Part shown: piece after piece, positions 1,006 to 24,075 of the stretch
Layout of the letters: each line of letters begins with the position of its first letter
How positions within the stretch are numbered: position 1 is the stretch's first letter
Origin: Sphaerochaeta associata
Lineage (GTDB): Bacteria; Spirochaetota; Spirochaetia; Sphaerochaetales; Sphaerochaetaceae
Reading direction: 5' to 3'
Assembly: GCF_022869165.1 (NCBI RefSeq)
Contig: NZ_CP094929.1
Coordinates: 310,001 to 374,000, forward strand
Length of the DNA stretch: 64,000 bases
The notes under the pieces: generated by a model
What the model saw: the letters and a program-made list of their open reading frames with translations, nothing else
Databases searched by the model: none
What the model was told of the DNA's origin: nothing
Position numbers and translations under genes: made by a program

Positions 1006-2223
1006 GTGATTAAGTCTTCCCAAACCAGTAAAAATAGAAAATTTTCAAATAGATTATATGATTTTGTAATGATATTGTTCCTTGTTTTTTTTATTGCATT
1101 TGCGAATGTAAGGCCTGCATATGTGATTATTGAAATTGTTTTTATTGGAGTATTTCTCATACGAGCGTTTACGAGAAACATGAGGCTTGAATTTTATGCT
1201 TATTGGAGTATTGCTTATCTACTGGTTGGATTGGTTTCAGCGATATTCTCGAGTTATATTACAGTCTCTTTTCAGATGCTAATTTCAACTATTCAAGTAC
1301 TTGTTGTTACAAACCTATTATTACCTTATATTCGAGACAATGAAAGAAATTGTGATTTATTTCAAATAGGGATTATCCTTGCGATTGCATCTTTAGGTAT
1401 ACGCTTAATTGTGACAACTCCTTTTTCTAGTTTAGGGCTCATGAGGGCAGGTTCATCAATTGGATATAATGCAAATGAATTTGGATTCATTTTCGCTTAT
1501 GGGACAACTGTTCTTTCATATCTATTCCTAGAAAATAGAAAAAAAATTTACCTCCCCATTATTGTTGTATTTTCCATTTTATGCTTGTTGTCTGGGTCGA
1601 GAACTGCTTTAGCAGTGATGCTGATATCATTTTCAATTCAAATCATCGGACATTATACCCAGCAAGGTGATATATTAAAATTCATTAAGGGAATATTCTT
1701 TCTTGGAGTAATTTTAATATTACTTATTATCCTAATTACTCAAAATGAGGTGCTATACGATATTCTTGGAAGAAGAGTAGTAACATTTTTTGAATCCTTA
1801 ACAGGTAGAGAAACTAGCGAAGGGAGCACACTCATCAGGTTATCGATGATAAGTGATGCATTAGATTTGTTTGTAAAAAAGCCGCTTCTAGGGTCAGGTC
1901 TGAATACTTTTAGGATATATAGTGGTTATGGAACATATTCACATAACAACTATACTGAACTTCTTGTATCTATTGGATTAGTTGGAATATTTATCTATTA
2001 TTCTCTTTTCATTTGGCTTTTAATAAAAGTAATAAGGCTATATAAAACAACTAAAGAGGGAAAATATATTTGTGTAGTAGCTTTAGTTTTTGCAGCATTG
2101 ATTGGAGATTTGGGTACTGTCTCATATTATAGTGAATCTTTGTATGTAATATGGCTTTTTTTTGTGTCTTTGATTGATAGAAAAAGCATTAACAGTAGGA
2201 AAATGCTAGGCGTCTCCTACTAG
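1006..2223 (+). CDS. Wzy/O-antigen ligase-like membrane protein
   Basis: A 405-residue, very hydrophobic protein with about ten predicted membrane spans. The large loop and the motif near the C-terminus (LLGSGLNTFRIYSGYG, then SHNNYTELL) match the Wzy_C/O-antigen ligase superfamily. Such proteins polymerise or ligate lipid-linked repeat units on the periplasmic side. The start is GTG at 1006, with only a weak ribosome site in the 11-base gap after the glycosyltransferase. Polymerase and ligase cannot be told apart from sequence. The presence of a flippase in the same locus favours polymerase. Confidence 0.8.
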   Translation: MIKSSQTSKNRKFSNRLYDFVMILFLVFFIAFANVRPAYVIIEIVFIGVFLIRAFTRNMRLEFYAYWSIAYLLVGLVSAIFSSYITVSFQMLISTIQVLVVTNLLLPYIRDNERNCDLFQIGIILAIASLGIRLIVTTPFSSLGLMRAGSSIGYNANEFGFIFAYGTTVLSYLFLENRKKIYLPIIVVFSILCLLSGSRTALAVMLISFSIQIIGHYTQQGDILKFIKGIFFLGVILILLIILITQNEVLYDILGRRVVTFFESLTGRETSEGSTLIRLSMISDALDLFVKKPLLGSGLNTFRIYSGYGTYSHNNYTELLVSIGLVGIFIYYSLFIWLLIKVIRLYKTTKEGKYICVVALVFAALIGDLGTVSYYSESLYVIWLFFVSLIDRKSINSRKMLGVSY

Positions 2224-2297: not shown

Positions 2298-3218
2298 ATG
2301 AATTTTAAAACGTTTAAAAGAATCCGTAAAGGTATTGAGAATCCTTCATTGATTTGTTTATTCTTGTTGGATAAGAGACTGTCAAGGGTTTTGTCAGATA
2401 AGGCCCAAATATCTCTTCTTTATAGATTTCGAATAGGAAGAAAGCCCAATCTCAGTAATCCAATTACTTTCAATGAAAAACTCCAATGGCTCAAGCTACA
2501 TGATCGAAACCCGCAGTATACCAATTTAGTAGATAAATATACGGTCCGTGAGCATATTAGAAATACCATCGGTGATAAATATCTAGTCCCTTTGCTTGGA
2601 GTATATGATTCAGTGGATGAGATTGATTATGCCAAATTGCCAAATCAGTTTGTATTAAAACCAACCCATACTTCGGGAAATGTTATTATTTGTAGAGACA
2701 AGGATGCTCTTGATATTAAGGTAACTAATAAAACACTGAAAGAATGGATGAAACGAGAGTATTTCTGGTATCAGAGAGAATGGCCTTATAAAAATATAAA
2801 GCCAAGAATTATTTGTGAGGAATTGCTTGTTGATGACACACAAGTAGATTTGATGGATTATAAAATACTTTGTTTTAATGGAGAGCCTAAATGTCTATTC
2901 GTCTGCTTAGATCGAAGAAGTCCAAGTGGATTGAAAGTTGATTTCTATGATTTGAATTGGACCCCTCTTCCTTTTGAGCGGCATTATCCAAGAAGTGGAA
3001 AGTTCATTGAAAAGCCAGAGTGTTTTGAAGAATTATTGGAATTGTCAAAGATTTTGTCGAGAGGAATTTCGTTTGTAAGAGTCGATTTCTATATTGTAAA
3101 TAAGCAAATTAAATTTGGCGAACTGACTTTTTACCCTGGATCTGGTCTAGAAGAATTTACTCCTGAAGAATATGACAAAACTCTTGGAAATTGGCTAGAT
3201 CTATCCAAAGAAAAATAG
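2298..3218 (+). CDS. TupA-like ATP-grasp polysaccharide protein
   Basis: A 306-residue protein with the features of the TupA-like ATP-grasp family found in teichuronopeptide and capsule loci: an N-terminal NPITFNEKLQWLKLHDRNP block, an FVLKPTHTSGN lysine/glycine segment for ATP, and C-terminal FVRVDFYIV and GELTFYPGSG blocks. Members are thought to form amide bonds between a carboxylate and an amine on the polymer, but the substrate is not established. It sits 74 bases after the Wzy-like gene and 12 bases before the DUF362 gene. Confidence 0.8.
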   Translation: MNFKTFKRIRKGIENPSLICLFLLDKRLSRVLSDKAQISLLYRFRIGRKPNLSNPITFNEKLQWLKLHDRNPQYTNLVDKYTVREHIRNTIGDKYLVPLLGVYDSVDEIDYAKLPNQFVLKPTHTSGNVIICRDKDALDIKVTNKTLKEWMKREYFWYQREWPYKNIKPRIICEELLVDDTQVDLMDYKILCFNGEPKCLFVCLDRRSPSGLKVDFYDLNWTPLPFERHYPRSGKFIEKPECFEELLELSKILSRGISFVRVDFYIVNKQIKFGELTFYPGSGLEEFTPEEYDKTLGNWLDLSKEK

Positions 3219-3230
3219 GAGATACGAATA

Positions 3231-6403: not shown

Positions 6404-7441
6404 ATGACAGACATGCACATAAATGAGCAAAATCTTACTGAACAAGTGATAAAAGAAAATTGGCAAAGCCCAGATATCCAAGTTAGTATTGTTTGTACTG
6501 CTTATAATCACGAACCGTTTATCAGAGATGCTATAGAAGGATTTCTATCTCAAAAAACCAATTTTGCATTTGAGATAATTATTCATGATGATGCATCTAC
6601 AGATGAAACTCCAAATATCATCATGGAGTATTATCCACGCTTCCCGGGTATTATAATCCCAATTCTTCAAAAAGAAAATCAATACTCAAAAGGGACTAGA
6701 ATTTTCTCAACATTTCTCAACCCAATAATTAGAGGAAAATACATAGCACATTGTGAAGGGGATGATTATTGGATTGATCCAGAAAAGTTACAGAAACAGT
6801 TTGATGCTTTAGAGGAAAACCAAACCTGTGATATCTGTTTTCATCCAGCAAAAGCATTGTACCCAAATGGTACTTCAAGAATTATGTGTCTACACAGCAA
6901 ATCCAAAAAAAAAATATTCTCTATAGGTGATGTGATTCTCGGTGGAGGTGGATTTATGCCAACCGCTTCTCTGTTTTATAGAAAGGAAATAAGAACTTCT
7001 GTTGATGCGTTTTTTGAAAAATATGGGAAATTTCCTGTTGGGGATGTAATGCTACAATTCCTTGCATCTAGAAGGGGGGGAGCCTTATACCTACCTATGA
7101 TTGGATCAGTTTATCGTGTAAGGTCACTAGGAAGCTGGTCTTCCAGAATGATGAATGATTCAAACTTTGCAAAAGAAGTTCAGAAGAAAAGTATATTATG
7201 GAATGAAAAACTCAACGAATTCACTAGTTATGAATATAATTATTACTTTAGAAAAAAAATTACTAGGATTCTTTTAAGCTACGTTACAAACCCATATATG
7301 GAGAAAGATGAAAGAATATATTTTTTACAAAATTATTCAAGCTATTTAGATAAAACGTTAAAAATTAGATGTAAAATATTATTCCTTTTAAGATACTTGA
7401 AAAAATTCGCCAAACAGAGTTTTTCTAGATATGCAAGATGA
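6404..7441 (+). CDS. GT2 family glycosyltransferase downstream of repeat
   Basis: A 345-residue GT2 enzyme starting 29 bases after repeat copy 1, with an AAGGAC ribosome site. Motifs are VSIVCTAYNHEPFIRDAIEG, IHDDASTDETP and CEGDDYW, the last being the metal-binding acidic pair. It overlaps the flippase start by four bases (ATGA), indicating translational coupling. A run of seven G (7074-7080) inside the coding frame is a possible slippage site. Because it begins right after the repeat, it may have arrived with it as a unit. Confidence 0.87.
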   Translation: MTDMHINEQNLTEQVIKENWQSPDIQVSIVCTAYNHEPFIRDAIEGFLSQKTNFAFEIIIHDDASTDETPNIIMEYYPRFPGIIIPILQKENQYSKGTRIFSTFLNPIIRGKYIAHCEGDDYWIDPEKLQKQFDALEENQTCDICFHPAKALYPNGTSRIMCLHSKSKKKIFSIGDVILGGGGFMPTASLFYRKEIRTSVDAFFEKYGKFPVGDVMLQFLASRRGGALYLPMIGSVYRVRSLGSWSSRMMNDSNFAKEVQKKSILWNEKLNEFTSYEYNYYFRKKITRILLSYVTNPYMEKDERIYFLQNYSSYLDKTLKIRCKILFLLRYLKKFAKQSFSRYAR

Positions 7442-8953: not shown

Positions 8954-10042
8954 ATGTCCATACTTGTCACTCGCTCCTCTCTTCCTCCTTTTAATGAATA
9001 CATTGAAGAATTGCGCTCAGTATGGGATACCCATTGGTTAACCAATATGGGATCCAAGCATAAGGAATTAGAAGCTTCCCTCTCTTCCTTTCTTGGTGCT
9101 GACTTTCTTTCACTTTTTACTAATGGGCACCTTGCTCTTGAAATGGTCTTGCAAGCATTGGGTCTTTCTGGTGAAGTTATAACCACTCCTTTCAGTTTTG
9201 CCTCTACCACCCATGCAATTGTTCGTAATGGATTGACTCCAGTCTTTTGTGACATAAAACCATCAGACTACACCCTCGACCCTTCCTTACTTGAATCATT
9301 CATTACGGATAAAACCTCTGCAATTCTCCCCGTCCATGTATACGGGAATATCTGTGATGTTGATGCAATTCAGAAGATTGCTGACAAGTATCATCTACGA
9401 GTTATCTATGACGCTGCCCATGCCTTTGCTGAAACCTATAAGGGCAAGGGTATTGGTTCCTTCGGGGATGCTTCCATGTTCAGCTTTCATGCCACCAAGG
9501 TGTTCAATACTATTGAAGGCGGTGCTATAGCTACTTCTGGTGTTGAACTTAAGAAGAAACTAGAAATGATCAAGAACTTTGGAATTAGTGGTCCTGAAGA
9601 TGTTATAGCTGTGGGTGGTAATGCCAAGATGAATGAGTTCCAGGCAGCTATGGGGCTCTGCAATCTTCGGCATTTGAATGAAGAAATTGAGAAACGAAAG
9701 CAGATTGTAGAACGATATCGTAATAACTTGGGTCGAATAGCAGGGATTAAACTTAATTCAATTCCAGTTGATGTAACTGAGAACTACGCTTATTTCCCTG
9801 TGGTCTTTGATCAGTATCGATATACCAGAGACCAGGTATTCGAAAAGCTTAAAGAACATGAAATCTATGCTCGCAAGTACTTCTATCCAACCATCAATAC
9901 CTTTGCATGTTATAGAGACAAGTATGATGCTGCAGAGACTCCTGTAGCTCAGTATATTGCTGAACGTGTTCTTACACTTCCTCTCTATGCAGACCTTTCC
10001 TTGGATGACGTAGATAGAATCTGCTCTATTATTACGAGGTGA
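8954..10042 (+). CDS. DegT/DnrJ/EryC1 family sugar aminotransferase
   Basis: A 362-residue PLP-dependent enzyme. The N-terminal block WDTHWLTNMGSKHKELE is typical of VioA-like dTDP-4-keto-6-deoxyglucose transaminases. DAAHAF supplies the PLP-contacting aspartate and SFHATKVFNTIEGG the lysine that forms the Schiff base. With RmlA and RmlB in the same locus, the likely product is a dTDP-4-amino-4,6-dideoxyhexose, but the exact sugar is inferred. A GGAGG ribosome site precedes the ATG. The stop region doubles as the ribosome site of the next gene. Confidence 0.88.
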   Translation: MSILVTRSSLPPFNEYIEELRSVWDTHWLTNMGSKHKELEASLSSFLGADFLSLFTNGHLALEMVLQALGLSGEVITTPFSFASTTHAIVRNGLTPVFCDIKPSDYTLDPSLLESFITDKTSAILPVHVYGNICDVDAIQKIADKYHLRVIYDAAHAFAETYKGKGIGSFGDASMFSFHATKVFNTIEGGAIATSGVELKKKLEMIKNFGISGPEDVIAVGGNAKMNEFQAAMGLCNLRHLNEEIEKRKQIVERYRNNLGRIAGIKLNSIPVDVTENYAYFPVVFDQYRYTRDQVFEKLKEHEIYARKYFYPTINTFACYRDKYDAAETPVAQYIAERVLTLPLYADLSLDDVDRICSIITR

Positions 10043-10142: not shown

Positions 10143-11207
10143 ATGCTGGGAATCATTGCTCATCATTACGTGGTGAATTCCGGTCTTACTTCACCTAATA
10201 GCCCCTTATGGCAAAATGTCTTGTCTGGACCATCACTCTTTCTTCTCGTGCTTGGAGCCTGGGGGAAGATAGGGATCAACTGCTTTGTTCTCATTACTGG
10301 TTACTTCATGTGTCAGTCACACATAACAGCTAGGAAGTTCATCAAACTCTTGGCAGAAGTGATGTTTTACAACATAGTGTTCTACCTCGTCTTCTTGTTG
10401 TCAGGCTATGAAGCCTTCTCCCTCAAAGCTCTTATCAAGGCCTTGATGCCGATAACAAGCATAGCTCAGAACTTCACTGGAACATATTTAGTCTTCTTCC
10501 TGTGCATCCCGTTTCTGAATATCCTGGTGCACAACATGACAGAAATGCAGCATGCCAGACTTTTATTGTTAAGCAGTTTTATGTACATCTTTTTCGGAAC
10601 CGTGAAGCTGCTACCAGTAACGATGAACTACGTGTCCTGGTACATAGTGCTTTTTTTCATTGCTTCTTACATTAGGCTCTATCCAAAGAAGCTTTTTGAT
10701 AGTACTCGTTTCTGGGGTTGGATGACATCGATAACAGTATTGCTTAGTGCTGCATCAGTTGTAGCTTGTGCTTGGATGGGAACTAAGATAGGACGTAACG
10801 CTCCATTCTTCTTTGTATCTGATTCCAATACTTTCTTAGCTGTTGCTACCGGTTTGAGTTCGTTTCTGTGGTTTAAGAATCTGAAGATTAGAAGCCGCTT
10901 CATCAACATAGTCGCATCTACATGCTTCGGAGTCCTGATGATTCATGCAAACAGTGACACGATGCGTCAATGGCTCTGGCGTGACACTTTGAATAACGTT
11001 GGTATGTATGGAAAGCCAATGATGGTTTATCATGCAATTGGCTCTATCGTGGGAATCTTCACTGTCTGCTGTCTTATTGATCTTCTCAGAATTCGCTTCA
11101 TCGAGAAGCCTTTTCTAAAGTTCTGGGATACGTGTTGGGATGGGATTAATAAATCCTTCACAAGTTTTGAGACCAAGTTCAGTACGAAGTTGAAAATACA
11201 AGGCTGA
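10143..11207 (+). CDS. Acyltransferase 3 family, probable N-terminal frameshift
   Basis: A polytopic membrane acyltransferase of the OafA/acyltransferase-3 group (AHHYVVNSG, CFVLITGYFM and about ten spans), expected to O- or N-acylate a surface sugar. The first ATG in frame is 10143, but conserved family sequence (KERDSNLELFRIVS) is encoded in the same frame upstream of it without a usual start codon. The ATG at 10051 has a good AGGTGA site at 10037-10042, inside the end of the aminotransferase gene. It would join this frame if the G6 run at 10077-10082 had seven G. The gene is therefore out of frame in this sequence or starts abnormally late. Confidence 0.8.
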   Translation: MLGIIAHHYVVNSGLTSPNSPLWQNVLSGPSLFLLVLGAWGKIGINCFVLITGYFMCQSHITARKFIKLLAEVMFYNIVFYLVFLLSGYEAFSLKALIKALMPITSIAQNFTGTYLVFFLCIPFLNILVHNMTEMQHARLLLLSSFMYIFFGTVKLLPVTMNYVSWYIVLFFIASYIRLYPKKLFDSTRFWGWMTSITVLLSAASVVACAWMGTKIGRNAPFFFVSDSNTFLAVATGLSSFLWFKNLKIRSRFINIVASTCFGVLMIHANSDTMRQWLWRDTLNNVGMYGKPMMVYHAIGSIVGIFTVCCLIDLLRIRFIEKPFLKFWDTCWDGINKSFTSFETKFSTKLKIQG

Positions 11208-11225: not shown

Positions 11226-12098
11226 ATGAAAGGAATCATTCTTGCCGGCGGGAAGGGAACTAGGTTGTTCCCTATGACAAAAGCGGTTTCAAAGCAGCTC
11301 CTTCCAATCTACGACAAACCCCTTATATACTATCCGCTTTCAGTGCTGATGCTCGCAAGCATCCAAGAGATTCTCATCATCTCAACACCTGATGACACTC
11401 CGGTGTATCAGAGGTTGTTGGGAGATGGGGCAGAGATTGGATTAAGAATTTCTTTCAAAGTACAAGAAACTCCCCGAGGCTTGGCTGATGCCTTCATCCT
11501 TGGGGAGTCTTTTATTGGGAATGATTCCGTATGCCTGATTCTCGGTGACAATGTGTTTTATGGACAGGACCTTACTAAAGTACTTAATAAAGCGAAGAGT
11601 AGGAGTAGTGGAGCTACCATCTTCGGTTACCCCGTCCACGATCCCCGTTCTTTCGGTGTTGTAGCCTTTGATGAGAACCAGAAGGTAATCTCAATCGAGG
11701 AAAAGCCTCAGCATCCCAAGTCCAAGTATGCAGTACCAGGTTTGTATTTCTATGACAATCGCGTAATCGAGATCGCCAAGCAGGTAAAGCCTTCAGCCCG
11801 TGGAGAGATAGAAATCACGTCAGTCAATAATGCCTATCTCGAAATGGGGGAGCTCCATGTAGAGCTGCTCGGACGTGGCATGGCATGGCTAGATACGGGT
11901 ACTCCCGAGGGTATGCTCAAGGCGGCCGAGTATGTGGAAGCGGTACAATCGAGGCAGGGTTTCTATATCTCCTGCATTGAAGAGATAGCCTGGAGACGTG
12001 GGTTCATTACCACTGAACAACTAAAGAAGATTGGGGAGAGCTTAAGGATGACCGACTACGGCCAATACATTCTTTCCCTGGTTGATGAGTCTGTGTAG
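11226..12098 (+). CDS. rfbA: Glucose-1-phosphate thymidylyltransferase RmlA
   Basis: A 290-residue enzyme with the nucleotidyltransferase signature [20 protein letters not shown] near the start, [12 protein letters not shown], and ILGDNVFYG for metal and sugar-phosphate binding. Length and motifs match RmlA, which joins glucose-1-phosphate and dTTP to give dTDP-glucose in the cytoplasm. It begins behind GGGAGAG and is followed nine bases later by rfbB. RmlC and RmlD are absent, so the pathway probably leaves dTDP-rhamnose synthesis aside and feeds the upstream aminotransferase. Confidence 0.96.
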
Positions 12099-12107
12099 GA
12101 GGACTGA

Positions 12108-13166
12108 GTGAACACCAATCCAAGAACCATCCTGATAACCGGTGGCGCCGGTTTCATTGGAAGTAACTTTATTGCATATCTTTTGAAGTATCATTCCGCC
12201 GATACTATAGTGAATCTTGATGTTCTTACCTATGCAGGCAATCTTGAAAACCTGAAAGAGGTGGAGGACAATCCTCGTTATTCGTTTGTAAAAGGAGACA
12301 TCAGGGACAGGGAGCTGGTTCATAGCCTTTTTGTTGAGCATCACTTCACCCATGTGGTGAACTTTGCTGCAGAGAGCCATGTGGACCGAAGTATTGTTGA
12401 TCCCGAGCTGTTTCTTACTACCAACATCATAGGAACAGAGGTTCTGTTGGATGAAGCAAAGAAGAGTTGGAAGCTGCATCCCGATGACAAGTACAACAAA
12501 GACTTTCAGGAAGGGGTGAGATTTCATCAGGTATCCACCGATGAGGTGTATGGAGCACTTGGTAAGGAGGGCCTCTTCACTGAGACCCTGCCATTGCTTC
12601 CGAACAGCCCGTATTCCGCTTCCAAGGCAAGTGCTGACTTGATTGTCCGAGCATACCATGAGACCTATGGCCTTCCAGTGACCATTTCTCGCTGCTCGAA
12701 TAACTATGGCCCATTCCAGTTTCCGGAAAAGCTTATCCCCTTGATGATTAACAACTGCCTCAAGGACAAGAGTCTTCCTGTCTATGGAGATGGGATGCAG
12801 ATCAGGGACTGGCTACATGTTATCGACCATTGTTCAGCGATCGATACAATCTTGGATAAGGGAACGATTGGAGAAATCTACAACATTGGTGGCAATAATG
12901 AGAAGGCAAACATTGAGATAGTAAAGCTCATCATCAAGACAGTTGGGAAGTCAGAGGATTTGATTACCTATGTGAAAGATCGTCCCGGGCATGACCGTAG
13001 GTATGCAATCGACAATACGAAGATTACCAGCCAGCTGGGATGGAAGCCTTCCTACACTTTCGAACAGGGAATGGAAGAAACCATCCAATGGTATCTTGAT
13101 AACCAGCAGTGGATTGAAAGAGTGGTGAGTGGGGATTATCAGAGGTATTATGAGAGGATGTATTAA
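12108..13166 (+). CDS. rfbB: dTDP-glucose 4,6-dehydratase RmlB
   Basis: A 352-residue short-chain dehydrogenase with the NAD fold ITGGAGFIGSNF, the DVLTYAGN block, HQVSTDEVYG and the catalytic YSASKA. NYGPFQFPEKLIPLMI is also typical of RmlB. It converts dTDP-glucose to dTDP-4-keto-6-deoxyglucose. The start is GTG 12108 behind GGAGGAC. It forms a pair with rfbA and supplies the keto sugar on which the DegT-type aminotransferase at 8954-10042 would act. Confidence 0.96.
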   Translation: MNTNPRTILITGGAGFIGSNFIAYLLKYHSADTIVNLDVLTYAGNLENLKEVEDNPRYSFVKGDIRDRELVHSLFVEHHFTHVVNFAAESHVDRSIVDPELFLTTNIIGTEVLLDEAKKSWKLHPDDKYNKDFQEGVRFHQVSTDEVYGALGKEGLFTETLPLLPNSPYSASKASADLIVRAYHETYGLPVTISRCSNNYGPFQFPEKLIPLMINNCLKDKSLPVYGDGMQIRDWLHVIDHCSAIDTILDKGTIGEIYNIGGNNEKANIEIVKLIIKTVGKSEDLITYVKDRPGHDRRYAIDNTKITSQLGWKPSYTFEQGMEETIQWYLDNQQWIERVVSGDYQRYYERMY

Positions 13167-13181: not shown

Positions 13182-14237
13182 ATGAAAGTAGGAATAATTG
13201 GCGGTGGAAATGGGGGGCTTGCTCTGGCAAGTCTCCTGTATAAAAGGGGAAATGAGATAAATCTATGGAACAGATCAATAAGCAGGATTGCTCCGATTAT
13301 TGAGCAGGATAATTCAATTATTGCAATAAATGGTGAAGAGAAAAGTTATGTGAAACTTAATAAAGTTTCAGATAATTTATCACTTATTGTTAATGATGTA
13401 GAAGTCATTTTTATAGTTACGACCAGCTCTGCCCATGAGGAATTAGGAAAGATTTTGCCACCTTACGTTCCACCGAATGTACCAATCTTATTGATGCCAG
13501 GGAGAACCTATGGTTGCGTTGCATATCTAGAGAATGCAGAAGAATTATTTCCGAATAATAAAAATATTTGTCTTGAAGCTCAAACACTTTTACATGCTTG
13601 TAGAGCAGAAGGAAATAAGGTTACAATTTACGGAACTAAAAAAGAAGTCACGTATTCTGGGGTTAACCAAGTTTCAGATGATACCATAATGAAACTAAAA
13701 AAATTATTACCAGAGTTGCATTATTCTCCAAATTACTTGGACATTGCGCTTAATAATGTGGGTGCATTTTTTCATCCAATCCCAACTCTATTAAATGCTG
13801 GAGTGATTGAAGGAAGGCTCTTTTTTAAGTATTACTCCACAGGTATTAGTAAGCATGTTGCTGCCTATATCCAGCGTATGGATGATGAGAAAGGTGAATT
13901 ATGCAAATTTCTTGGTGTTTATCATTGTTCATTGGTGGATTGGTTAAAAATTGAGTATTGTGCAGAAGGAGAAGATTTATACACATGTCTGCAAAGTGTA
14001 TCTGCATACAAGGAGATTGATGCCCCAAATACCCTAAATCATAGATATGTTTATGATGATTTACTGACTGGCTTAATCCCAATTCTAAATACTGCAAAAT
14101 ATTTTAGAGTTGCTGTGCCAACTATTGAGACATTTATACATTTTGCTTGTGATTTTATGGATGTGGATTATCTTGCTAATGGTAGGAATTTCCCAAAAAT
14201 GCTTCAAGCAAAATTCTCAACTTCTATTTTTGTATGA
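13182..14237 (+). CDS. Octopine/nopaline dehydrogenase family protein
   Basis: A 351-residue protein with an N-terminal Rossmann motif (GIIGGGNGGLALASLL) and a helical C-terminal domain carrying NNVGAFFHPIPTLLNAG, where the conserved His matches the opine dehydrogenase catalytic site. The family reductively condenses an amino acid with a 2-oxo acid to give an opine. In some enteric O-antigens, opine-type N-(1-carboxyethyl) amino acids decorate sugars, which makes that role plausible here. It is followed after 13 bases by the B12-type gene. A six-G run (13212-13217) lies in the coding sequence. Confidence 0.82.
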   Translation: MKVGIIGGGNGGLALASLLYKRGNEINLWNRSISRIAPIIEQDNSIIAINGEEKSYVKLNKVSDNLSLIVNDVEVIFIVTTSSAHEELGKILPPYVPPNVPILLMPGRTYGCVAYLENAEELFPNNKNICLEAQTLLHACRAEGNKVTIYGTKKEVTYSGVNQVSDDTIMKLKKLLPELHYSPNYLDIALNNVGAFFHPIPTLLNAGVIEGRLFFKYYSTGISKHVAAYIQRMDDEKGELCKFLGVYHCSLVDWLKIEYCAEGEDLYTCLQSVSAYKEIDAPNTLNHRYVYDDLLTGLIPILNTAKYFRVAVPTIETFIHFACDFMDVDYLANGRNFPKMLQAKFSTSIFV

Positions 14238-14250
14238 TAAGGAATATACT

Positions 14251-16110
14251 GTGATACATGCAACAGATGTTTTCGGTTTAGTTAAAACATCAATAGATGT
14301 TCATACCCTTGGGATGGTAACCTGTCAATCAATACTCAAATCATGTGGATTTTCGGTTGTGCTTGCAGATGTTGTGATTGAGAGAGTTATTGAAAAAATT
14401 GAGAGAGATGAAAATAGAGAAATTTTCACTGAGTGGATTAAAAGGAATCACATTGATCATATCAGTTTTAGTTATCGTCTTGATCCAACAACAGGATTTT
14501 CAATATTTTCTGAATTCTATATGACTTTACGTAAAGCACAACTACTCAAAGAACAAGGAGGTCCGATTAAGATAATTTCTTTTGCAGGTCTGTCTGAAAC
14601 ATGCATGCTAATACGTGAAAGATTTGGGGATAGAATTAAATATTTCAAAGGTGAGGAATCTCCATTGGAGTTGATTTGCGAACTCGGAATACCTGAAACA
14701 CTCTTTCCTTCAGGATTACGTGTTGAATCGATTTATGATAAGAAACGTGATGAGTTTGCTACCAGTATCCTCACTTCTGATGAGTATCTTGTTACACCAC
14801 ATCCATCAGCATTGAACTATCAAGGATATGGGACATTTAGGGATACGATGTTGAATAGAATTATAAGCAGGAAGAAAGTTGATAACTTACCAATCTTGCG
14901 CACTCATATTGGCCCATATCTTGATAACCGATTTGAGGCACTGAAGTTATACAAAGAATGGGTTAGAACGATTGCTAAGTCAGGATACCTTGATGTCTTG
15001 TCTATTGGAACTTCACAATTGTCACAAAGTATGTTTGAAGAGAATTGGAACACAAATTTGAATGGGGGAGGTGTCCCAATTAATTCACGCGAAGAATTTT
15101 TTGAAATTGCTCAATTGGCAAGCCCGATGTTAGTTCGGTCTTACGCTGGGACAAATAATCTTTTGAAGATGGCTAAGATTCATGAACAGTATCTAAATAT
15201 TGCATGGCATGCGTTTTCTTTTTGGTGGTTTAATATTCTTGATGGAAGAGGACCCCTAAAGCTTGAGGAAAATTTAATCCATACATTTCAAGCTCTTCAG
15301 TATGCTGCAGAGACTGGGAAACCTGTTGAAGCAAACGTTTCACATCATTTCGCCTTTAGGGGTTCTGACGATCTCACATATATAATTACTAATTATCTTA
15401 CTGCTGTAGCATGTAAAAATGCAGGGATTAAGACATATATTGTACAAAATATGTTAAATACTCCACGATTTACTTGGGGTGTACAAGATATTGCCAAATC
15501 AAGAGCAATGATGTCTATCACAAGAAAATTGGAAGATAGAAACTTTAAGGTAATATTCGAAACCCGTGCTGGACTTTCTCTGTTCTCATCGGATATTGAT
15601 AAAGCTAAAAAACAATTGGTTGCTACGACTTTGCTAATGGATGATTTAGCAAAGGCTCCAAAATTTAATCCCGATATCATCCATGTAGTTAATTATTCGG
15701 AAGGTAAGTTTTTAGCGGATCCTGATGTTGTTATTGAAAGTATCAAGTTAACTCTCCATTCATTAAAATCATATCAAACATTTAAAAAGAAAGAAGGGAG
15801 CTTAGTTTCTAGAGATGAGAAAGAATGGATAGAGAACAAAGAATTTGAACTAGTTAGCGAAGCTAATAGTGTTATTACTGCTATGGAGCAAAGCATTCCC
15901 AATTTATACTCTCCTGAGGGATTTAATATTGCTTTCAAACAAGGATGGTTTCCTGTACCCCATCTATGGGTTGGAAGAGATGAGTATAGTAATGCAGTTA
16001 ATTGGGATGTCCAGTATATTAATGGTGGATATTACTTGGTTAATGAACTAGGAAAACCATTGTCAGCGGTAGAACGAACTAATAAAATCAGATACGGTGG
16101 GACAGTATGA
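14251..16110 (+). CDS. Cobalamin-dependent mutase-like protein
   Basis: The preferred start is GTG 14251, which has AAGGA seven bases upstream; a longer frame back to 14110 overlaps the upstream gene and reads as non-native. The protein (about 619 residues) begins with a B12-binding Rossmann domain whose DVHTLGM segment fits the DxHxxG base-off motif. A long region resembling the TIM barrel of glutamate mutase and related aminomutases follows (for example GTNNLLKMAKIHEQ and HVVNYSEGKFLADP). A carbon-skeleton or amino-group migration is the likely chemistry. The substrate is unknown. It overlaps the ATP-grasp gene by four bases. Confidence 0.72.
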   Translation: MIHATDVFGLVKTSIDVHTLGMVTCQSILKSCGFSVVLADVVIERVIEKIERDENREIFTEWIKRNHIDHISFSYRLDPTTGFSIFSEFYMTLRKAQLLKEQGGPIKIISFAGLSETCMLIRERFGDRIKYFKGEESPLELICELGIPETLFPSGLRVESIYDKKRDEFATSILTSDEYLVTPHPSALNYQGYGTFRDTMLNRIISRKKVDNLPILRTHIGPYLDNRFEALKLYKEWVRTIAKSGYLDVLSIGTSQLSQSMFEENWNTNLNGGGVPINSREEFFEIAQLASPMLVRSYAGTNNLLKMAKIHEQYLNIAWHAFSFWWFNILDGRGPLKLEENLIHTFQALQYAAETGKPVEANVSHHFAFRGSDDLTYIITNYLTAVACKNAGIKTYIVQNMLNTPRFTWGVQDIAKSRAMMSITRKLEDRNFKVIFETRAGLSLFSSDIDKAKKQLVATTLLMDDLAKAPKFNPDIIHVVNYSEGKFLADPDVVIESIKLTLHSLKSYQTFKKKEGSLVSRDEKEWIENKEFELVSEANSVITAMEQSIPNLYSPEGFNIAFKQGWFPVPHLWVGRDEYSNAVNWDVQYINGGYYLVNELGKPLSAVERTNKIRYGGTV

Positions 16111-17342
16111 AAGCAATTGTATTAGCAGGTGGAAATGATCAAATTGCGCTATTAAAATTGTTGCGTGAAAGGGATATCTACACGATTTTAATTGATTTTA
16201 ATAAAGAACCGATTGCAAAACCTTTTGCAGACAAGCATTTTGAAGTAAGTACGATGGACTACAGTGCAGTTGTATCAATCGCCAAATCTGAGAAAGTTGA
16301 TTTTATATTAACTGTATGCACAGACCAAGCATTGTTAATTGCTGCAAAGGCATCAGAACAGTTAGGATTATATTTTCCAATTAGCTTTAAAATGGCACAG
16401 AACCTTACAAATAAGAAATGGATGAAGCAAGTACTTACTGAAGCGCAGCTTCCTACTGCAAAATATTCGGTCTCTAGTGATGTGAAAAACCTTGAGCTAG
16501 ATAGATTGTCATTTCCTCTTGTTTTTAAACCAGTTGATAGCAATAGTTCAAAAGGTGTAATTAAAGCAAAATCAATGGAGGATGTACATGCGGCTTTTAC
16601 ATATGCAAAATCTTTCAGTCGATCTGGTGTTGTCATTTGTGAGGAATTCATAAGCGGAGAGGAGATTTCAATAGATGCATTTATTGTTAAGTCAAGAGCT
16701 CATCTATTGTTGGTTTCTAAATCAGAAAAACTGCAGGGTATTGAGAGACGGGATTTCCCGATACATCGGAGTATTGCTCCTTACTCCTTGAGTAATAAAC
16801 TAGAAATTATGCTTGTTGATATTTTACAGAAAATTGCTGATGCATTTTGCATCATAGATTCTCCTTTATTGGTACAAGCAATTGTCAATGAGGATGGAAT
16901 TAATATAATTGAGTTGAGTGCAAGGACAGGGGGGGGGTCGAAATACGCCTTAATTGAAGAAATAACTGGTTTTAATGTGATACAAGGGTTTCTGAAAATA
17001 ATTTTCCATGAAAATCTTTCTATCAGGTTGATACAAAATCCTAGAAATTATGTGATGCAATATATCTATACAATTCCTGGGATGTATTTGGGTCAGGAGG
17101 GATTTGATTACTGTTTGGAAAAAAAAATTATCGACAATGTTTTCTTCTATAAGAAAGAAGGAACACATATTTCTGGTAACACTAACAGTAGCGATCGTAT
17201 TGCAGGTGTATTGTTTTCAGGAAAAACTACAAGCGAATTGAATGAAAAAATTGCCCAATTTGACAATTCTATTAAAATTCTGAATGATTCACAAGCTGAT
17301 ATTTTTATACATGGGCTGCCTCTGCTAGGCGAAGAGTCGTAA
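16107..17342 (+). CDS. ATP-grasp carboxylate-amine ligase-like protein
   Basis: A 411-residue ATP-grasp protein. The N-terminal pre-ATP domain is AIVLAGGNDQIALLKLLRE, followed by FPLVFKPVDSNSSKGVIK (ATP lysine and glycine loop), EEFISGEEISIDAF, and IIELSARTGGGSKY with the metal-binding residues. The family ligates a carboxylate to an amine using ATP. The four-base overlap with the B12-type gene implies a shared translation unit and pathway with the opine dehydrogenase. A run of nine G (16929-16937) encodes part of the RTGGG active-site loop, so any slippage would destroy the enzyme. Confidence 0.82.
   Translation: MKAIVLAGGNDQIALLKLLRERDIYTILIDFNKEPIAKPFADKHFEVSTMDYSAVVSIAKSEKVDFILTVCTDQALLIAAKASEQLGLYFPISFKMAQNLTNKKWMKQVLTEAQLPTAKYSVSSDVKNLELDRLSFPLVFKPVDSNSSKGVIKAKSMEDVHAAFTYAKSFSRSGVVICEEFISGEEISIDAFIVKSRAHLLLVSKSEKLQGIERRDFPIHRSIAPYSLSNKLEIMLVDILQKIADAFCIIDSPLLVQAIVNEDGINIIELSARTGGGSKYALIEEITGFNVIQGFLKIIFHENLSIRLIQNPRNYVMQYIYTIPGMYLGQEGFDYCLEKKIIDNVFFYKKEGTHISGNTNSSDRIAGVLFSGKTTSELNEKIAQFDNSIKILNDSQADIFIHGLPLLGEES
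16929..16937 (+). other. G9 homopolymer inside ATP-grasp gene
   Basis: Nine consecutive G lie in an AT-rich gene, coding for glycines of the conserved active-site segment. Runs of this length are known contingency tracts in other bacteria. The current length keeps the frame open. Confidence 0.75.
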
Positions 17343-17974: not shown

Positions 17975-18349
17975 CTATGGCTTGTAATCAGGGACATCCT
18001 CATATTCATCCTCAATCACAAAGATCACGTTTGGATCCGTTTCCCCATGCAGCTGATGTGCAATTTTACCTTTCAGGTAGGCAAGCTTGTTGCCCAGGTA
18101 AGCCATCTCGTTCTCGATCTTGTCCAAGCCGTACAACAGTCGAAGCCTTCCTTCAGGGCTTTGGTACTGCATTACTATCTTTCTGGCCTGCTCATGCAGG
18201 TCCTGTTCCGAGTATTCATGCGGGCTGGGTTCTATCCCCAACCGGTCCAATATGATCTGCTCGAGCTCCTCGGTGAATTTTGTACCGTCGTATCGGTAAC
18301 ACGAACGCAATTCACGCAAGTATTGTTTGTCAACGACCATGTTCGTCAC
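17975..18349 (-). CDS. Accessory small protein of the IS21-type element
   Basis: A 124-residue acidic, helical protein that overlaps the 3' end of istB by 20 bases and lies inside the element's ends. The N-terminal half (LRSCYRYDGTKFTEELEQII) and the coiled-coil-like middle show no catalytic motif. I do not recognise a function. Its position suggests a passenger or accessory gene co-transcribed with istAB. Confidence 0.6.
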   Translation of the reverse strand: MTNMVVDKQYLRELRSCYRYDGTKFTEELEQIILDRLGIEPSPHEYSEQDLHEQARKIVMQYQSPEGRLRLLYGLDKIENEMAYLGNKLAYLKGKIAHQLHGETDPNVIFVIEDEYEDVPDYKP

Positions 18350-19121
18350 CCCCTTTCGACCGCTCGGATGCGGTCTTCCGCATCAATGCATGCTCCATCC
18401 GGTAGCTCTGCCCCTCGAACACAAGCAGGTGCCCATGGTGGATGAGCCTGTCGATCATTGCTGCAGCCATCTGCTGGTCGGTGAAGATGCCACCCCACTT
18501 GGAAAACTCGAGGTTCGTCGTAAGAATGAGGCTTTTGCTCTCGTAGCTGTCGCTGATGATGCGGAACAGGAGCTGGGACCCCTCCTTGTCCACCGGTACG
18601 TACCCCCACTCATCAAGAATGAGCAGATCCAGTCTGCGTATGTCCGACACCAAGCGTTCCAAGACTCCGTTCTTCCGTGCCTCGGCCAGTTTCAGCACCA
18701 GCTCGGTCACCGTATAGAACCGGGCTGCAAGGCCCATCTCGCAGGCCTTCATCCCCAGTGCTATGGCCATATGCGTTTTCCCGGTTCCCACCGGTCCATA
18801 GCAGACCAGGTTGGTCTTCCTGCCAATGAATTCGCAGCCTTCCAGTTCCACCCTGGTAATGGAAGGCGGCAGGCGCACATGAGAATAGTCGTAGCCTTCC
18901 ATGCTCTTGGGCATGGGAAACCGGGCCCGGTTGAGCAGCCTGGAGCGTTTTGAGCGTTCCCGGCTCTCCACCTCCATTGACAGCACGTCATGCAGGAACT
19001 CTTCCTGCCTCGGCGTTGCCTGCTGGCACAACGCTACCAGTTGTTGGGAAAGGAACAGTTTCCGGCACATGTCCGATATCTCTTCCCTACGTTGGATGCG
19101 GATGGTTGAAGTCATCATCAT
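18330..19121 (-). CDS. istB: IS21-family helper ATPase IstB
   Basis: A 263-residue DnaC-like AAA+ protein with Walker A GPVGTGKTHMAIALG, Walker B LLILDEWGY and sensor sequence LILTTNLEFSKW. IstB assists the IstA transposase by binding target DNA and regulating strand transfer. Its start overlaps the istA stop by four bases, the usual arrangement. Length and motifs are normal, so it appears functional. Confidence 0.95.
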   Translation of the reverse strand: MMMTSTIRIQRREEISDMCRKLFLSQQLVALCQQATPRQEEFLHDVLSMEVESRERSKRSRLLNRARFPMPKSMEGYDYSHVRLPPSITRVELEGCEFIGRKTNLVCYGPVGTGKTHMAIALGMKACEMGLAARFYTVTELVLKLAEARKNGVLERLVSDIRRLDLLILDEWGYVPVDKEGSQLLFRIISDSYESKSLILTTNLEFSKWGGIFTDQQMAAAMIDRLIHHGHLLVFEGQSYRMEHALMRKTASERSKGGDEHGR

Positions 19122-20590
19122 GGCTGCACCCTCCGTTGTTCCAGAAGCTGGTCGTACAACGAAAGGTCGGGACCGGCGTCCAGGTCGGTTTGGTCCCCGA
19201 ACTCCGCCATCCTCGCCGCAAACACCATTGCATCGCTGAACGGGGCGTTGCCGGGGTTCCTCAGCACCAGGTCGAACGCATCAAGTGCTCTTTCGAAGCT
19301 GTAGCGCTCGCTCAGCAGGTTCATCGTTCGCAGGGCATCCTTCAGCGATTCCCTGTCCAGCGCATCGAGATAATCGCGTACGGGGGAGGACACCATCTCC
19401 CTCACACCGCTGTTGGGCCACGCTCCCACATTTCTCATGAGTACGGCCATGGAGGTTCTTGGGTCGACGCTGTCGGACCGCTCCTTGCCGAATTTGCGGA
19501 CGTGGCTCACCAGGATCTTGCGCTTCTCGTCATAGATGTCGACGGTGTGGGCCCGGATGCCCACCAGCACTTCGCTTCCCCGGTATTCGGGACGGGTTGA
19601 GTAATGGTGGTTGCCGTCAATCTCCACCTTCCCGTACCCGTCGGCCTTGGCGTACACATACCGACAGACATCAAAACGGTGTCGGGGCAGCGGCAGCAGT
19701 GCCTCGCGGTCCTGTTCGAAAAGCTCGCCTATGATTGTGTTCTTCTTGTAATGGGTATTTCCCTGAAAGCTCGTCGCCTGCTCCAGCAAGCCCTTGTTGT
19801 ATTGCTGCAGGTCGTCGAACTCGGGCAGGGGAACGAACCGGTTCCTGCGGACCGTGCCGATTTTATTCTCGACGCACCCCTTTTCCCATCCACTACCCGG
19901 ACTGCAGAATCGTATGGAGAAGCCGTAGTGAGCCCTGAATTGGGCGAAGAGCTTCGCTTCCCGTATCTCCTGCCCGATGCGACGACCTGCTCCGGTGGCA
20001 TTGTCTATCACAACCAGGGGGAAGACTCCGCCGATGAACTCAAAGACGTCCTGAAAGCCCTGGCAGATGCATTCGCTGGTCTCTCCGTTGAACATCTGGG
20101 GAAAATCCGCATTTGAATTCGGAAACACGCAGACAAGATAATGCTTGCGCTGCTTGACGCCTCTTTCATAGCAGTCCGCCTCGCCGAAGTCCCCCTGGGC
20201 CTCACCCGGATGCCATACCAGCTCCTGGCAGGCCCTGTAACTCGAGCGTTGTGCACGTGTTTTCCTCACATACCGCGATACCGTTGGGTAGGAGCAACCG
20301 AATTCCGGATGCAGCTCCACCAACCTGTCATAGACGCGCTGGGCGGTATGGCGCTGTTTCGAATTCTCCTTTTCATCGTTGGAAAGCCATCCGTCTATCT
20401 GCGGCTTGTAGGGGTCCAGCTTGCTGGGCAACCCCTCCTTCTTTTGAGGCGGCTTCGGTGAGAAGTCTTCCATGCAGAGGTACTTCCTCGCCGTCTTCTC
20501 ATCGACCGATACTTCCCTGGCAATCCTTGCCACTGAGTATCCCTCTTTCCTCAAATCTCTGATACAATTGATTTGGGACATGTTGAGCAC
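19118..20590 (-). CDS. istA: IS21-family transposase IstA
   Basis: A 490-residue transposase with an N-terminal helix-turn-helix (IRDLRKEGYSVARIAREVSV), a second DNA-binding region (FGCSYPTVSRYVRK), and the DDE core beginning GEAQGDFGEAD. LVVIDNATGAG and FCSPGSGWEKGCVENKIG carry the second and third acidic residues. It transposes the element at 17886-20705 by a cut-and-paste route with IstB. The gene is full length. Confidence 0.94.
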   Translation of the reverse strand: MLNMSQINCIRDLRKEGYSVARIAREVSVDEKTARKYLCMEDFSPKPPQKKEGLPSKLDPYKPQIDGWLSNDEKENSKQRHTAQRVYDRLVELHPEFGCSYPTVSRYVRKTRAQRSSYRACQELVWHPGEAQGDFGEADCYERGVKQRKHYLVCVFPNSNADFPQMFNGETSECICQGFQDVFEFIGGVFPLVVIDNATGAGRRIGQEIREAKLFAQFRAHYGFSIRFCSPGSGWEKGCVENKIGTVRRNRFVPLPEFDDLQQYNKGLLEQATSFQGNTHYKKNTIIGELFEQDREALLPLPRHRFDVCRYVYAKADGYGKVEIDGNHHYSTRPEYRGSEVLVGIRAHTVDIYDEKRKILVSHVRKFGKERSDSVDPRTSMAVLMRNVGAWPNSGVREMVSSPVRDYLDALDRESLKDALRTMNLLSERYSFERALDAFDLVLRNPGNAPFSDAMVFAARMAEFGDQTDLDAGPDLSLYDQLLEQRRVQP

Positions 20591-20735
20591 TTCTCCTTTC
20601 TCCTTTAATGTATTTGTTTCTACATCAAAGGTTACTTTCCAAAGGGCAGCTTCTCAACTGTCCCTTTGAACAATCCCGGGAATTTCCCGTGATCAGACCA
20701 AGGAAGATGAAGTGATCTTTCTAGGGATTTTTAGT

Positions 20736-21662
20736 TTACGCTACACAGGGGGAGAGGACCCGTTGCTGCTTGCGCCGCTTGTTCGGGTCGATGATGGGCA
20801 CCCTGCCGTTTCCGATGATGAAGTCCTTGATGGGCTTTGCGTCGTAGGCGCTGTCCATCAGCGAGTACAGGTGTTTGATCCGCTGCCCGGTCATCCGCTC
20901 CAAGGGAATCGCCGCTTGGCTGTCATGTACGTTGGCACCCGTGACGATGGTGCTGACGGGAATGCCGCTGTCGGTGACATCCAGGTGAAGCTTGTAGCCC
21001 TTCCAATAGTTGCGGTTGCCCTGGCTGTTGCGCTTGCATCCCCAGCTGCACTGGGAGTTCAATTCCTCGACTGCCTGTTCGGCAGTCTGGCCAAGTTGCT
21101 TCTGCAGAACGTTTTGCTTCTTGGTTTTCGACTCAGAGCCTTTCTTGGGCCTGCCGGGTTTCCCCCTCGGGATCACTTCCTTCTTCTTGTTCACGGCCTT
21201 CTCGCGCGCCTCGATGGCTGTGGAGTCCCGGCTGACATGACCCACGATGCGGCCGTCCAGATAGGAGCTTACCAAGGGGCCCAGCGCCTTCTCCATGAGT
21301 CTTTGGCGTGCATGGGATGCAAATTTCCTGCTGAAGGTGGCCTCACTCGGTACGGAGGTGAACCCGCAGACCTGCCGCAGCGACGGATCGCTGAGCAGGC
21401 GGTTGCGAAGCGAGGTGACGGTGGGAATCTTGAAAAACTGCTTGGCCAGGGCCGAACGGATCATCGCCGTCTCATCATAGCCCTTGCGTCCGAGCAGGCT
21501 TTCCTTGCGTTCGCATGCAGGCATAAATTCCTCTATCACCTGCAGCATCTGGATGAACATACGATGTTCGGCGGTCACATATCCTTCGAAAACCTCTTGG
21601 ATGTCGAAAGAAATTCCGAATACCATCTGGCAACCGCCGAGGATTTCTGCTATGCTTTTCAT
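20736..21662 (-). pseudogene. IS5/IS1182-like transposase, N-terminal part
   Basis: The first 308 residues of a DDE transposase: an N-terminal helical region (GRKGYDETAMIRSALAKQFF), GHVSRDSTAIEAREK with the first catalytic aspartate, and GANVHDSQAAIPL with the second. The frame runs off after KRRKQQ into unrelated codons and a stop beside the nested IS21 element. The missing tail is at 17659-17880. The ATG at 21662 has a GGAGAGC site. Confidence 0.85.
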
Positions 21663-21905: not shown

Positions 21906-22241
21906 ATGAGCATGTTCGATACTGCCAAGGACAGCCTTACTATTGATGTTTCAAAATTCCAAAAAGCATTCTACCATTTAAAGAAAAAGCCAGAATTCAA
22001 AGATATTATGAGAGAAATTAGATTCCGTGGTTCTCCCGCAAGCCCTTATTCTGAAGACCTTGATGAGGCATTGTCAAATCTTCAATATATCCATGTCTTA
22101 AGCAGGAAGAACCCGGATCTGGTGGAGTACATGAAGGCCGAGAAGTTTACTGAAACATGGAAAAAGTTAAATAGTAAATATGATACTGCTATTCAAAGCC
22201 TAATTAGTGAAATAGGCAAAAAAATCGTAACCTCTCTATGA
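21906..22241 (+). CDS. Small hypothetical protein upstream of HD fragment
   Basis: About 111 residues, charged and helical, with no family I recognise. I chose ATG 21906 (MSMFDTAKDSL) over GTG 21864 because it has CGGAAG at the right distance. The stop overlaps the next gene's ATG by four bases, so the two were probably translated together and act as partners. The partner is a truncated HD-domain protein, so the pair is no longer complete. Confidence 0.55.
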   Translation: MSMFDTAKDSLTIDVSKFQKAFYHLKKKPEFKDIMREIRFRGSPASPYSEDLDEALSNLQYIHVLSRKNPDLVEYMKAEKFTETWKKLNSKYDTAIQSLISEIGKKIVTSL

Positions 22242-22528
22242 ATTTTGAAGATTTTAAAACACATATTGAGATTTATTGTAATGAGAATCTACCAACAAAG
22301 CATGAGATAAAACCTTCATCAAAAATCATACATGATACAACTTGGGGGACGAATCTATACAGACCTCATGAGGTCTCAATAATTAATACACAGCTGTTTC
22401 AACGATTGCGTCATGTAAGCCAAATGGGATTTGCGAATTACGTTTATCCTTCAGCACGTCATTCAAGATTCGAGCATAGTCTTGGTGTTGCGATTCTTGT
22501 GGAGAGAATGTGTAAGCACATTAATTAA
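22238..22528 (+). pseudogene. HD-domain phosphohydrolase, truncated
   Basis: A 96-residue N-terminal fragment of an HD hydrolase. QLFQRLRHVSQMG and SARHSRFEHSLGVAILVERM are diagnostic of the dGTPase/HD superfamily, and FEHSLG holds the first metal histidine. The HD dipeptide itself and everything after it are missing; the frame stops six codons after the motif, beside transposase debris. A nucleotide- or cyclic-nucleotide-cleaving role can be assumed only for the intact ancestor. Confidence 0.75.
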
Positions 22529-23001: not shown

Positions 23002-24075
23002 ATGGCTAAGAAAGTAATACTAGATGGCGAGTATTTTGATGATTACTTAAAAGTAATTGATAAATTGAAAAGACGTGCTGACAAAGATTCTTCTCCATTT
23101 CATCTGCTACTAGGTAATGGTTTTAGCATTGCATATGATAAAGAGATTTTTTCATATAATGCCCTTTTTAAAGAGATGGAAAGAGGTAAAAACCCTGATC
23201 TAGTCAAATTATTCAAGGTTACTAATACTTCGAATTTTGAGATAGTGATGCAGCAACTTGATACTTTAATAAAGTTGGGGGAGAGTTTTGGAGCAAATGA
23301 TGACTTCTTGGAAGAATTGAGAAAAATACGAACTCAGCTAAAACTAGAATTAATTAATACGATAGACCGATTACATCCTGAATGCGTTTTTGACATTCCT
23401 GAAGGATCAATACAAAAATGTGGTGATTTTTTAAAACCATATTCTTCTAAGCCAAATTCAATAATTTCAACTAATTACGATTTATTACTTTATTGGGTAT
23501 TAATGAGATACAATGGGCTTTCGTCCATCGCTAATGATGGCTTTTCATATCCCTATGAAGAACGGATGAATGAGGATGATTTTATTCGTTCTAACGATAC
23601 ATTGGTTTGGGGTGGGATGACCGATGAGCAAACTGTATTTTATCTTCATGGAGCTCTTCATTTGTTTGATGATAATAGTGATATAATCAAAGAAAAATAT
23701 AGAGATGGTCAGTATATTAAGCAAGAAATTGAGAAAAGAATCAATAATAATCAATATCCTATTTTCGTGACAGAAGGGGATGGTGACCAGAAATTGCAAC
23801 ATATCATGCATAATGGTTATCTATCAAACTGTTATACACATCTAAAACAAATCAAAGGTAGTCTAATTACTTTAGGATTTAGCTTTGGTGAGTCAGATAG
23901 ACATATTCTTAAAGCATTGAATGAAGCGGCTAGAGGTGATGTGAGAAATAGATTGAATAGTGTATATGTGGGAGTATTTTCTGCTGAAGATAAAGAAAGA
24001 ATCGAAAAAATCAGGGGGCAATGTTTTTTCAAGGTAAATACATTCGATGCAAGAACTGTCCCTCTTTGGAAATGA
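23002..24075 (+). CDS. DUF4917 / SIR2-like protein
   Basis: A 357-residue protein that fits DUF4917, a SIR2-like group. The N-terminal HLLLGNGFSIAYD, the central SIISTNYDLLLYW and the downstream FYLHGALHLF match the nucleotide-binding, Asn/Asp and catalytic-His positions of SIR2-type NAD-consuming folds. GFSFGESDRHILKAL closes the fold. Related proteins are found in phage-defence loci, where NAD depletion is the usual outcome. That role is inferred here. It has a strong GGAGGAAGAAGG ribosome site and sits between repeat copies 2 and 3 as a single-gene unit. Confidence 0.75.
   Translation: MAKKVILDGEYFDDYLKVIDKLKRRADKDSSPFHLLLGNGFSIAYDKEIFSYNALFKEMERGKNPDLVKLFKVTNTSNFEIVMQQLDTLIKLGESFGANDDFLEELRKIRTQLKLELINTIDRLHPECVFDIPEGSIQKCGDFLKPYSSKPNSIISTNYDLLLYWVLMRYNGLSSIANDGFSYPYEERMNEDDFIRSNDTLVWGGMTDEQTVFYLHGALHLFDDNSDIIKEKYRDGQYIKQEIEKRINNNQYPIFVTEGDGDQKLQHIMHNGYLSNCYTHLKQIKGSLITLGFSFGESDRHILKALNEAARGDVRNRLNSVYVGVFSAEDKERIEKIRGQCFFKVNTFDARTVPLWK

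Follow-up and report, generated by a model that had tools for sequence, protein, structure and literature searches.

A gene pair encoding an opine dehydrogenase (ODH) and a putative AdoCbl-type mutase is the conserved unit of the locus described here; the ATP-grasp ligase that accompanies the pair and the destination of the product vary from locus to locus. In the window—the whole 64-kb stretch of DNA analysed, positions 310001–374000 of the single contig of a 3.55-Mb host genome—we lean towards a reading in which mutase and ODH make a rearranged opine-type amino acid that the ligase joins to a 4-amino-6-deoxy sugar. More tentatively, we propose a new AdoCbl carbon-skeleton mutase whose substrate may itself be an opine, or whose product may be the amino-acid half of one. 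With its dedicated ODH it would serve a multi-phylum pathway, in which exchangeable ligases would direct the rearranged opine onto amino sugars of surface glycans or into free metabolites of a peptide-like kind. In the open-access literature we found neither a description of a mutase–ODH–ATP-grasp set nor biochemistry for any member of the mutase family.

The three genes and their neighbourhood

An earlier note on this DNA had described three tightly coupled genes, and their spacing bears this out: all three frames are open and intact, ODH and mutase genes are 13 bases apart, and mutase and ligase genes overlap by four (ATGA). These figures assume the most likely mutase start, GTG 14251, with AAGGA at 14239–14243, seven bases 5′ of the GTG. 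The genes rmlA, rmlB, ODH, mutase and ligase are consecutive and belong to a long polysaccharide locus that also holds glycosyltransferases and genes for Wzy-like, TupA-like ATP-grasp, Wzx, DegT and membrane acyltransferase proteins. The features referred to below are as follows.

1006..2223, plus strand: membrane protein resembling Wzy_C / O-antigen ligases, within the same polysaccharide locus
6404..7441, plus strand: GT2 glycosyltransferase, of the same type as at mutase loci L002, L046, L072 and L073
7438..8901, plus strand: Wzx-type flippase (profile matches; counterpart in L072)
8954..10042, plus strand: DegT/DnrJ sugar aminotransferase (best model DesI-type, below cut-off); predicted product a 4-amino-4,6-dideoxyhexose nucleotide
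10143..11207, plus strand: membrane acyltransferase (PF01757), with a 28% identical counterpart in the L072 locus
11226..12098, plus strand: RmlA, glucose-1-phosphate thymidylyltransferase (TIGR01207, 469.9 bits; cut-off 361)
12108..13166, plus strand: RmlB, dTDP-glucose 4,6-dehydratase (TIGR01181, 499.8 bits; cut-off 365), ending 15 bases before the ODH gene
13182..14237, plus strand: ODH, PF02317 (Pfam, likeness to PDB 1bg6, invariant residues)
14251..16110, plus strand: predicted AdoCbl-dependent mutase with fused domains, about 619 aa from its GTG start; family undescribed (ORF, predicted structure, family alignment)
14251..14695, plus strand: predicted N-terminal B12-binding Rossmann domain of the mutase (structural matches cover model residues 6–153)
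14824..16080, plus strand: predicted mutase barrel resembling glutamate mutase E, with the C-terminal extension (model residues 197–614 on 1cb7_B 40–443)
16107..17342, plus strand: ATP-grasp ligase, L-amino-acid-ligase type (PF13535; closest solved structure 3vot, BL00235)

Neither rmlC nor rmlD was seen in the interval from the DegT gene to the trio, so dTDP-4-keto-6-deoxyglucose would most simply go to the aminotransferase. The GT2 enzyme is a candidate transferase of the decorated sugar. Elsewhere in the polysaccharide locus, a TupA-type ATP-grasp gene (PF14305) and then one for a DUF362 protein occupy 2298–4679. Directly downstream of the trio, 18330–21662 carries an IstB/IstA-like pair (IS21 type, minus strand) and another transposase; beyond these, a short HD-like ORF (22238–22528) precedes an ORF at 23002–24075 that is SIR2-like by eye. 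No Rfam element, for instance a cobalamin riboswitch, was found in the 64-kb window.

The outer two genes are of the classes originally given to them, octopine/nopaline-type dehydrogenase and ATP-grasp ligase. The ODH matches PF02317 (Octopine_DH) at 110 bits (cut-off 30) and, in its NAD-binding N-terminus, PF01210 at 30 bits (cut-off 23). Its closest solved structure, by full-length sequence homology, is N-(1-D-carboxylethyl)-L-norvaline dehydrogenase (1bg6; E 8.7e-39). H198, R288 and D293 are invariant among 20 relatives, and both 1bg6 and octopine dehydrogenase (3c7a) share the histidine, arginine and aspartate; we take H198 to be the catalytic histidine and R288/D293 the Arg/Asp pair of opine dehydrogenases, and on this conservation the enzyme is predicted to be active. 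For the ligase, PF13535 scores 45 bits (cut-off 27), and the nearest solved structure is the L-amino acid ligase BL00235 (3vot; E 6.8e-18).

Linkage and settings of mutase and ODH

All 18 genomes with the mutase carry PF02317 at the mutase locus, and 17 of them nowhere else (counting two G650 rows as one gene); G1122 has one extra copy away from that locus, and G407 has two mutase loci, each with its own ODH. PF02317 was found in 0/14 control genomes. Further Bacteroidales loci (L069–L072, L074–L076) also pair mutase and ODH, the only exceptions to the pairing being loci cut at contig ends and a short fragment (L051, 210 aa). This truncated mutase (L051:3479–4111), which has no ODH and comes from a genome of the same class, is possibly a decaying copy. 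The link is strong and two-way, in counts that are not phylogenetically independent, and the pair's recurrence in several phyla lies well beyond chance. Unlike the enzymes represented by 1bg6 and 3c7a, the window's type of ODH was tied to a B12 mutase throughout the genomes tested. The earlier note had taken the trio as its unit: the set does recur elsewhere, but its constant core is mutase plus ODH, and the ligase is exchangeable, being L-amino-acid-ligase-like, Ddl-like, ATPgrasp_Ter-like or sometimes AsnB-like.

Mutase relatives are sparse in Spirochaetota, Bacteroidota, Lentisphaerota/Verrucomicrobiota and Cloacimonadota. Among sampled genomes, carriers numbered 9/393 in the window's phylum, 5/338 in the phylum of L004, 3/395 in the class and 10/393 in the order of L002, and 0/25 among congeners of the host. 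G037 has the same sequence as L005, and G422 the same as L006. Of the plasmids searched, none carries a mutase. With this sparse distribution and the transposase genes downstream of the window's trio, the cassette is mobile and patchy. Trees of mutase and ODH did not resolve the window's branch (a long branch, in no starred clade), and we therefore name no transfer donor.

Three settings recur. The first comprises polysaccharide loci: seven with the window's ligase type (the window, L002, L045, L046, L047, L072 and L074), together with L070, L071 and L076, in which the pair lies among other polysaccharide genes; L071 and L076 have ATPgrasp_Ter-type ligases, and L047 adjoins a NeuB-family gene. 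A DegT aminotransferase gene was present in the stretch at all seven loci with the window's ligase type, versus 0/17 loci (of at least 9 kb) lacking that ligase. The window and L072, from a Bacteroidales genome, have seven genes in common (GT2, 43% identity; Wzx, 39%; DegT, 48%; acyltransferase, 28%; ligase, 40%; ODH, 30%; mutase, 45%). From the association with DegT at 7/7 loci, we predict a sugar amine as the acceptor of this ligase type. As a separate observation, L074:2218–10333 contains two ODH genes that are flanked and separated by BKACE, AtuA-like and MmgE/PrpD-like genes, possibly for the supply of an unusual 2-oxo acid or for further steps.

In the second setting, ODH and mutase are joined by a Ddl-like ligase and a gene resembling ornithine racemase (386 bits, Orr cut-off 480), at L003, L004, L005, L007/L050 and L069. 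The cassettes of L003, L004, L005, L007 and L069 are near-identical (ligases about 80%) across Cloacimonadota, Lentisphaerota, Spirochaetota and Bacteroidales, which argues for a recent exchange among phyla; at L004, two Ddl-like domains are fused in one ligase. The third setting, in Spirochaetota and the phylum of L004, often has mutase and ODH together with a Ddl-like ligase and a conserved membrane protein. A protein of this kind, about 228 aa long with an MscS first-helix domain (PF05552), adjoins the ODH at 11 loci of non-glycan type (L006, L036–L041, L043, L044, L048 and L049) and could serve the product as a channel or exporter. Genes for AsnB-like glutamine amidotransferases/synthetases occur between or near ODH and mutase at L044, L038 and L048. 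Since the pair is also found outside polysaccharide loci, a glycan is not its sole destination. For the glycan decoration that the earlier note had envisaged, this leaves a polysaccharide setting that recurs with an aminotransferase able to supply the sugar amine, but not an exclusive one.

A predicted mutase with its own active site

The mutase has no Pfam or NCBIfam match above cut-off; its best Pfam trace is B12-binding PF02310 (E 0.1, below cut-off), and its B12 domain weakly matches an NCBIfam model of methyltransferase corrinoid protein (E 0.011). Searches against PDB sequences (phmmer/hmmsearch) returned nothing relevant, and the protein has no match to the glutamate mutase epsilon family PF06368 at E up to 10, a family for which its own genome also yielded none. 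Profile–profile comparison (hhalign) of the mutase family with three MutE sequences gave E 0.098 only, although the register was plausible, and forcing a global alignment with MutE gave nothing usable; homology to known mutases thus rests on predicted structure. Relatives at 40–46% identity over the whole length come from Bacteroidota, Cloacimonadota, Lentisphaerota and Spirochaetota; a more distant group (L044, L046, L075 and L076) has 26–32%. ODHs are more diverged, at 24–34% identity versus 40–46% for the main group of mutases. Mutase residues are numbered below with codon 14236 as the first; numbers from the GTG 14251 start are lower by 5.

The DxHxxG-type B12 domain and TIM-barrel-like region noted at first sight were both recovered in AlphaFold models. 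The motif reads D21-V-H23-T-L-G26, with H23 and G26 present in 25/25 family members. AlphaFold2 modelled the whole protein at pTM 0.84, and the N-terminal domain, modelled separately (pTM 0.77), is predicted to be a B12-type Rossmann domain. Its best structural match was the B12 subunit of 2-hydroxyisobutyryl-CoA mutase (Z 13.2), followed by methylmalonyl-CoA mutase, IcmF, methionine synthase and others, and nearly all of the best 20 matches were B12-binding domains. Response-regulator receiver domains, which have the same flavodoxin-like arrangement, also match at Z about 10.9, so the DxHxxG motif is needed besides the fold to assign this domain.

The barrel gave the best eight structural matches all to AdoCbl mutases or aminomutases (Z 21–25). 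Glutamate mutase E (1cb7_B) was the nearest (Z 24.9, 373 residues, 3.5 Å), lysine 5,6-aminomutase (Z 23.0) and ornithine 4,5-aminomutase (Z 21.0) came next, and CoA mutases of the MCM, IcmF and HCM class were below glutamate mutase at Z 14–17. The structural modelling is thus in line with the original guess of a B12 mutase. Neither of the two outcomes that the earlier note had named as fatal to its idea, a trio not kept together elsewhere or a second protein modelled outside the B12 mutases, was seen. By architecture, the protein would be an AdoCbl-type mutase of a new family with a conserved substrate. A BtuR-type cobalamin adenosyltransferase encoded in the host genome makes AdoCbl supply plausible; the PduO type (PF01923) is absent from that genome.

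Glutamate mutase grips its substrate through an arginine claw, R66, R100 and R149, assisted by E171 (PMC10947579). After checking this numbering against the 1cb7_B sequence, we mapped the mutase onto MutE with three seeded alignments, a strand-by-strand mapping that is partly alignment-dependent: R66 falls on H224 in 3/3 alignments (the robust part of the comparison), R100 on Q264 or its neighbour, and R149 on Y303 in two alignments and on R301 in one. H224, Q264 and Y303 are invariant in all 25 family members, as are R222, D336, R338, E365, N367, R375, K421, R444, H483 and E489; R301 is invariant or nearly so. E330 of MutE falls on the invariant E489 in 3/3 alignments. The residue eleven positions after the motif histidine, which we take to be the PLP-lysine position of lysine 5,6- and ornithine 4,5-aminomutases, is Leu, Val, Ile or Ala in 25/25 members.

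The protein thus resembles glutamate mutase (MutS/MutE; 1cb7, 6h9e) in its predicted barrel with C-terminal extension, its class of DxHxxG B12 domain and its glutamate at the E330 position, but differs from it in being a single fused chain with the B12 domain first, in lacking a PF06368 match and in its replaced claw. To the lysine 5,6- and D-ornithine 4,5-aminomutases (1xrs, 8t0v, 3kow) it is related in barrel (Z 21–23) and B12 domain (Z about 10.9), and one mutase sub-group adjoins the ornithine-racemase-like gene, but the family lacks their lysine at His+11. By the defining features of these enzymes, it would be neither a glutamate mutase nor a PLP aminomutase. Glutamate mutase and lysine 5,6-aminomutase, offered in the earlier note as models, accordingly fail as guides to the substrate: with the claw arginines replaced by H224, Q264 and Y303, glutamate cannot be assumed, and with an aliphatic residue or alanine at the PLP-lysine position, neither can lysine or ornithine. 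Loss of the claw together with many invariant arginines is compatible with an opine or another polyacid as the substrate.

A possible route, its alternatives and what it would mean

Starting from these enzyme classes and their gene linkage, we infer a substrate, reaction steps and an acceptor. The N-terminal domain of the mutase would hold a corrin with its cobalt liganded by His23, and the barrel would bind a polar compound, probably one with several carboxylates, and rearrange its carbon skeleton by AdoCbl radical chemistry. The ODH would join an amino acid by reductive condensation to a 2-oxo acid that is probably pyruvate. Placed in one short pathway, with either enzyme possibly acting first, the two would give an N-(1-carboxyalkyl) amino acid that is rearranged or branched, a carboxylate of which the ligase would activate and link to an amine. 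In the window, RmlA, RmlB and DegT would make a 6-deoxyhexose whose 4-amino group is the likeliest amine, before or after loading onto a lipid carrier; incorporation of the decorated sugar into a surface glycan would then fall to the GT2 enzyme and the Wzx flippase. The mutase–ODH pair would supply a common building block and the ligase would act as adaptor. The earlier note had put isomerisation before condensation and had named a sugar or carrier as acceptor; this order and the sugar acceptor are best treated as presumptive.

The opposite order is a sub-case of this route: the ODH would first make an N-(1-carboxyalkyl) amino acid, in which the mutase would migrate a group to give a rearranged opine. 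A claw replaced at all three positions, alongside R222, R301, R338, R375 and R444, would fit such a different, larger polyacid, and no mutase was seen without an ODH apart from the contig-end loci and the L051 fragment. Reaction order, however, is not readable from sequence, and the greater divergence of the ODHs gives no pointer to a fixed ODH product, so that we consider this order possible but somewhat unlikely.

The same enzymes could instead make a free small molecule—a dipeptide-like or opine-type metabolite, an osmolyte, a metallophore or an antibiotic—with the polysaccharide neighbours reflecting shared cassette mobility. Outside glycan loci the pair does keep company with a Ddl-like ligase and the ornithine-racemase-like gene (L003, L004, L005 and L069) or, at 11 loci, with the protein resembling an MscS N-terminus; the window's ligase is closest to an L-amino acid ligase, and IS21-like and other transposase genes lie just downstream. 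The acceptor of this ligase could be a free amino acid instead of a sugar. However, the window's ligase type occurs only with DegT and polysaccharide genes, at 7/7 loci in at least two phyla, and the window has seven genes in common with L072. For the window we judge a free product unlikely, albeit with real weight.

A variant glutamate mutase making 3-methylaspartate would explain why the best structural match is glutamate mutase E, C-terminal extension included, and why E330 coincides with E489, but it sits badly with the lack of PF06368 matches in protein and genome and with invariant H224, Q264 and Y303 in place of the three claw arginines (PMC10947579), and we regard it as improbable. Binding of the corrinoid for methyl transfer or sensing, without AdoCbl radical chemistry, is hinted at by the weak methyltransferase corrinoid protein match (E 0.011) and is highly improbable given a fused, mutase-like barrel and a B12 domain whose best structural matches are AdoCbl mutase domains.

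The end steps of the favoured route, to an opine-decorated amino sugar, have chemical precedent. The O-antigen of Providencia alcalifaciens O35 is known to carry alanopine amide-linked to Qui4N (4-amino-4,6-dideoxyglucose; PMC10609480), which, compared by product, is the same kind of compound as predicted for the window; in the text consulted, no B12 mutase is mentioned for this glycan. An amide-linked opine on a 4-amino-4,6-dideoxy sugar being already known, the mutase would be the new element in an opine-glycan route. Nikkomycin offers a second parallel, an unusual amino acid amide-linked to an amino sugar. Its sanU/sanV (SanUV/NikUV) are reported to be a glutamate mutase, as named in a reference cited by PMC4021061, and so offer a precedent in which an enzyme of glutamate-mutase type helps to make an unusual amino acid for an amino-sugar amide. 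Unlike the window's mutase, sanU/sanV form two subunits and belong to an actinomycete antibiotic. We know of no opine dehydrogenase in the nikkomycin system.

To our knowledge, there are few kinds of AdoCbl mutase, and every addition has given access to a reaction that neither chemistry nor biology could otherwise perform. This family has an invariant active site of its own, no Pfam or NCBIfam model and real prospects of a new reaction, and its obligate ODH partner limits the candidate substrates to compounds that suit an opine dehydrogenase. The ODH–mutase pair is, in addition, a clean genome-mining handle for a new class of metabolite. If the glycan reading is true, it would link B12 supply to bacterial surface structure.
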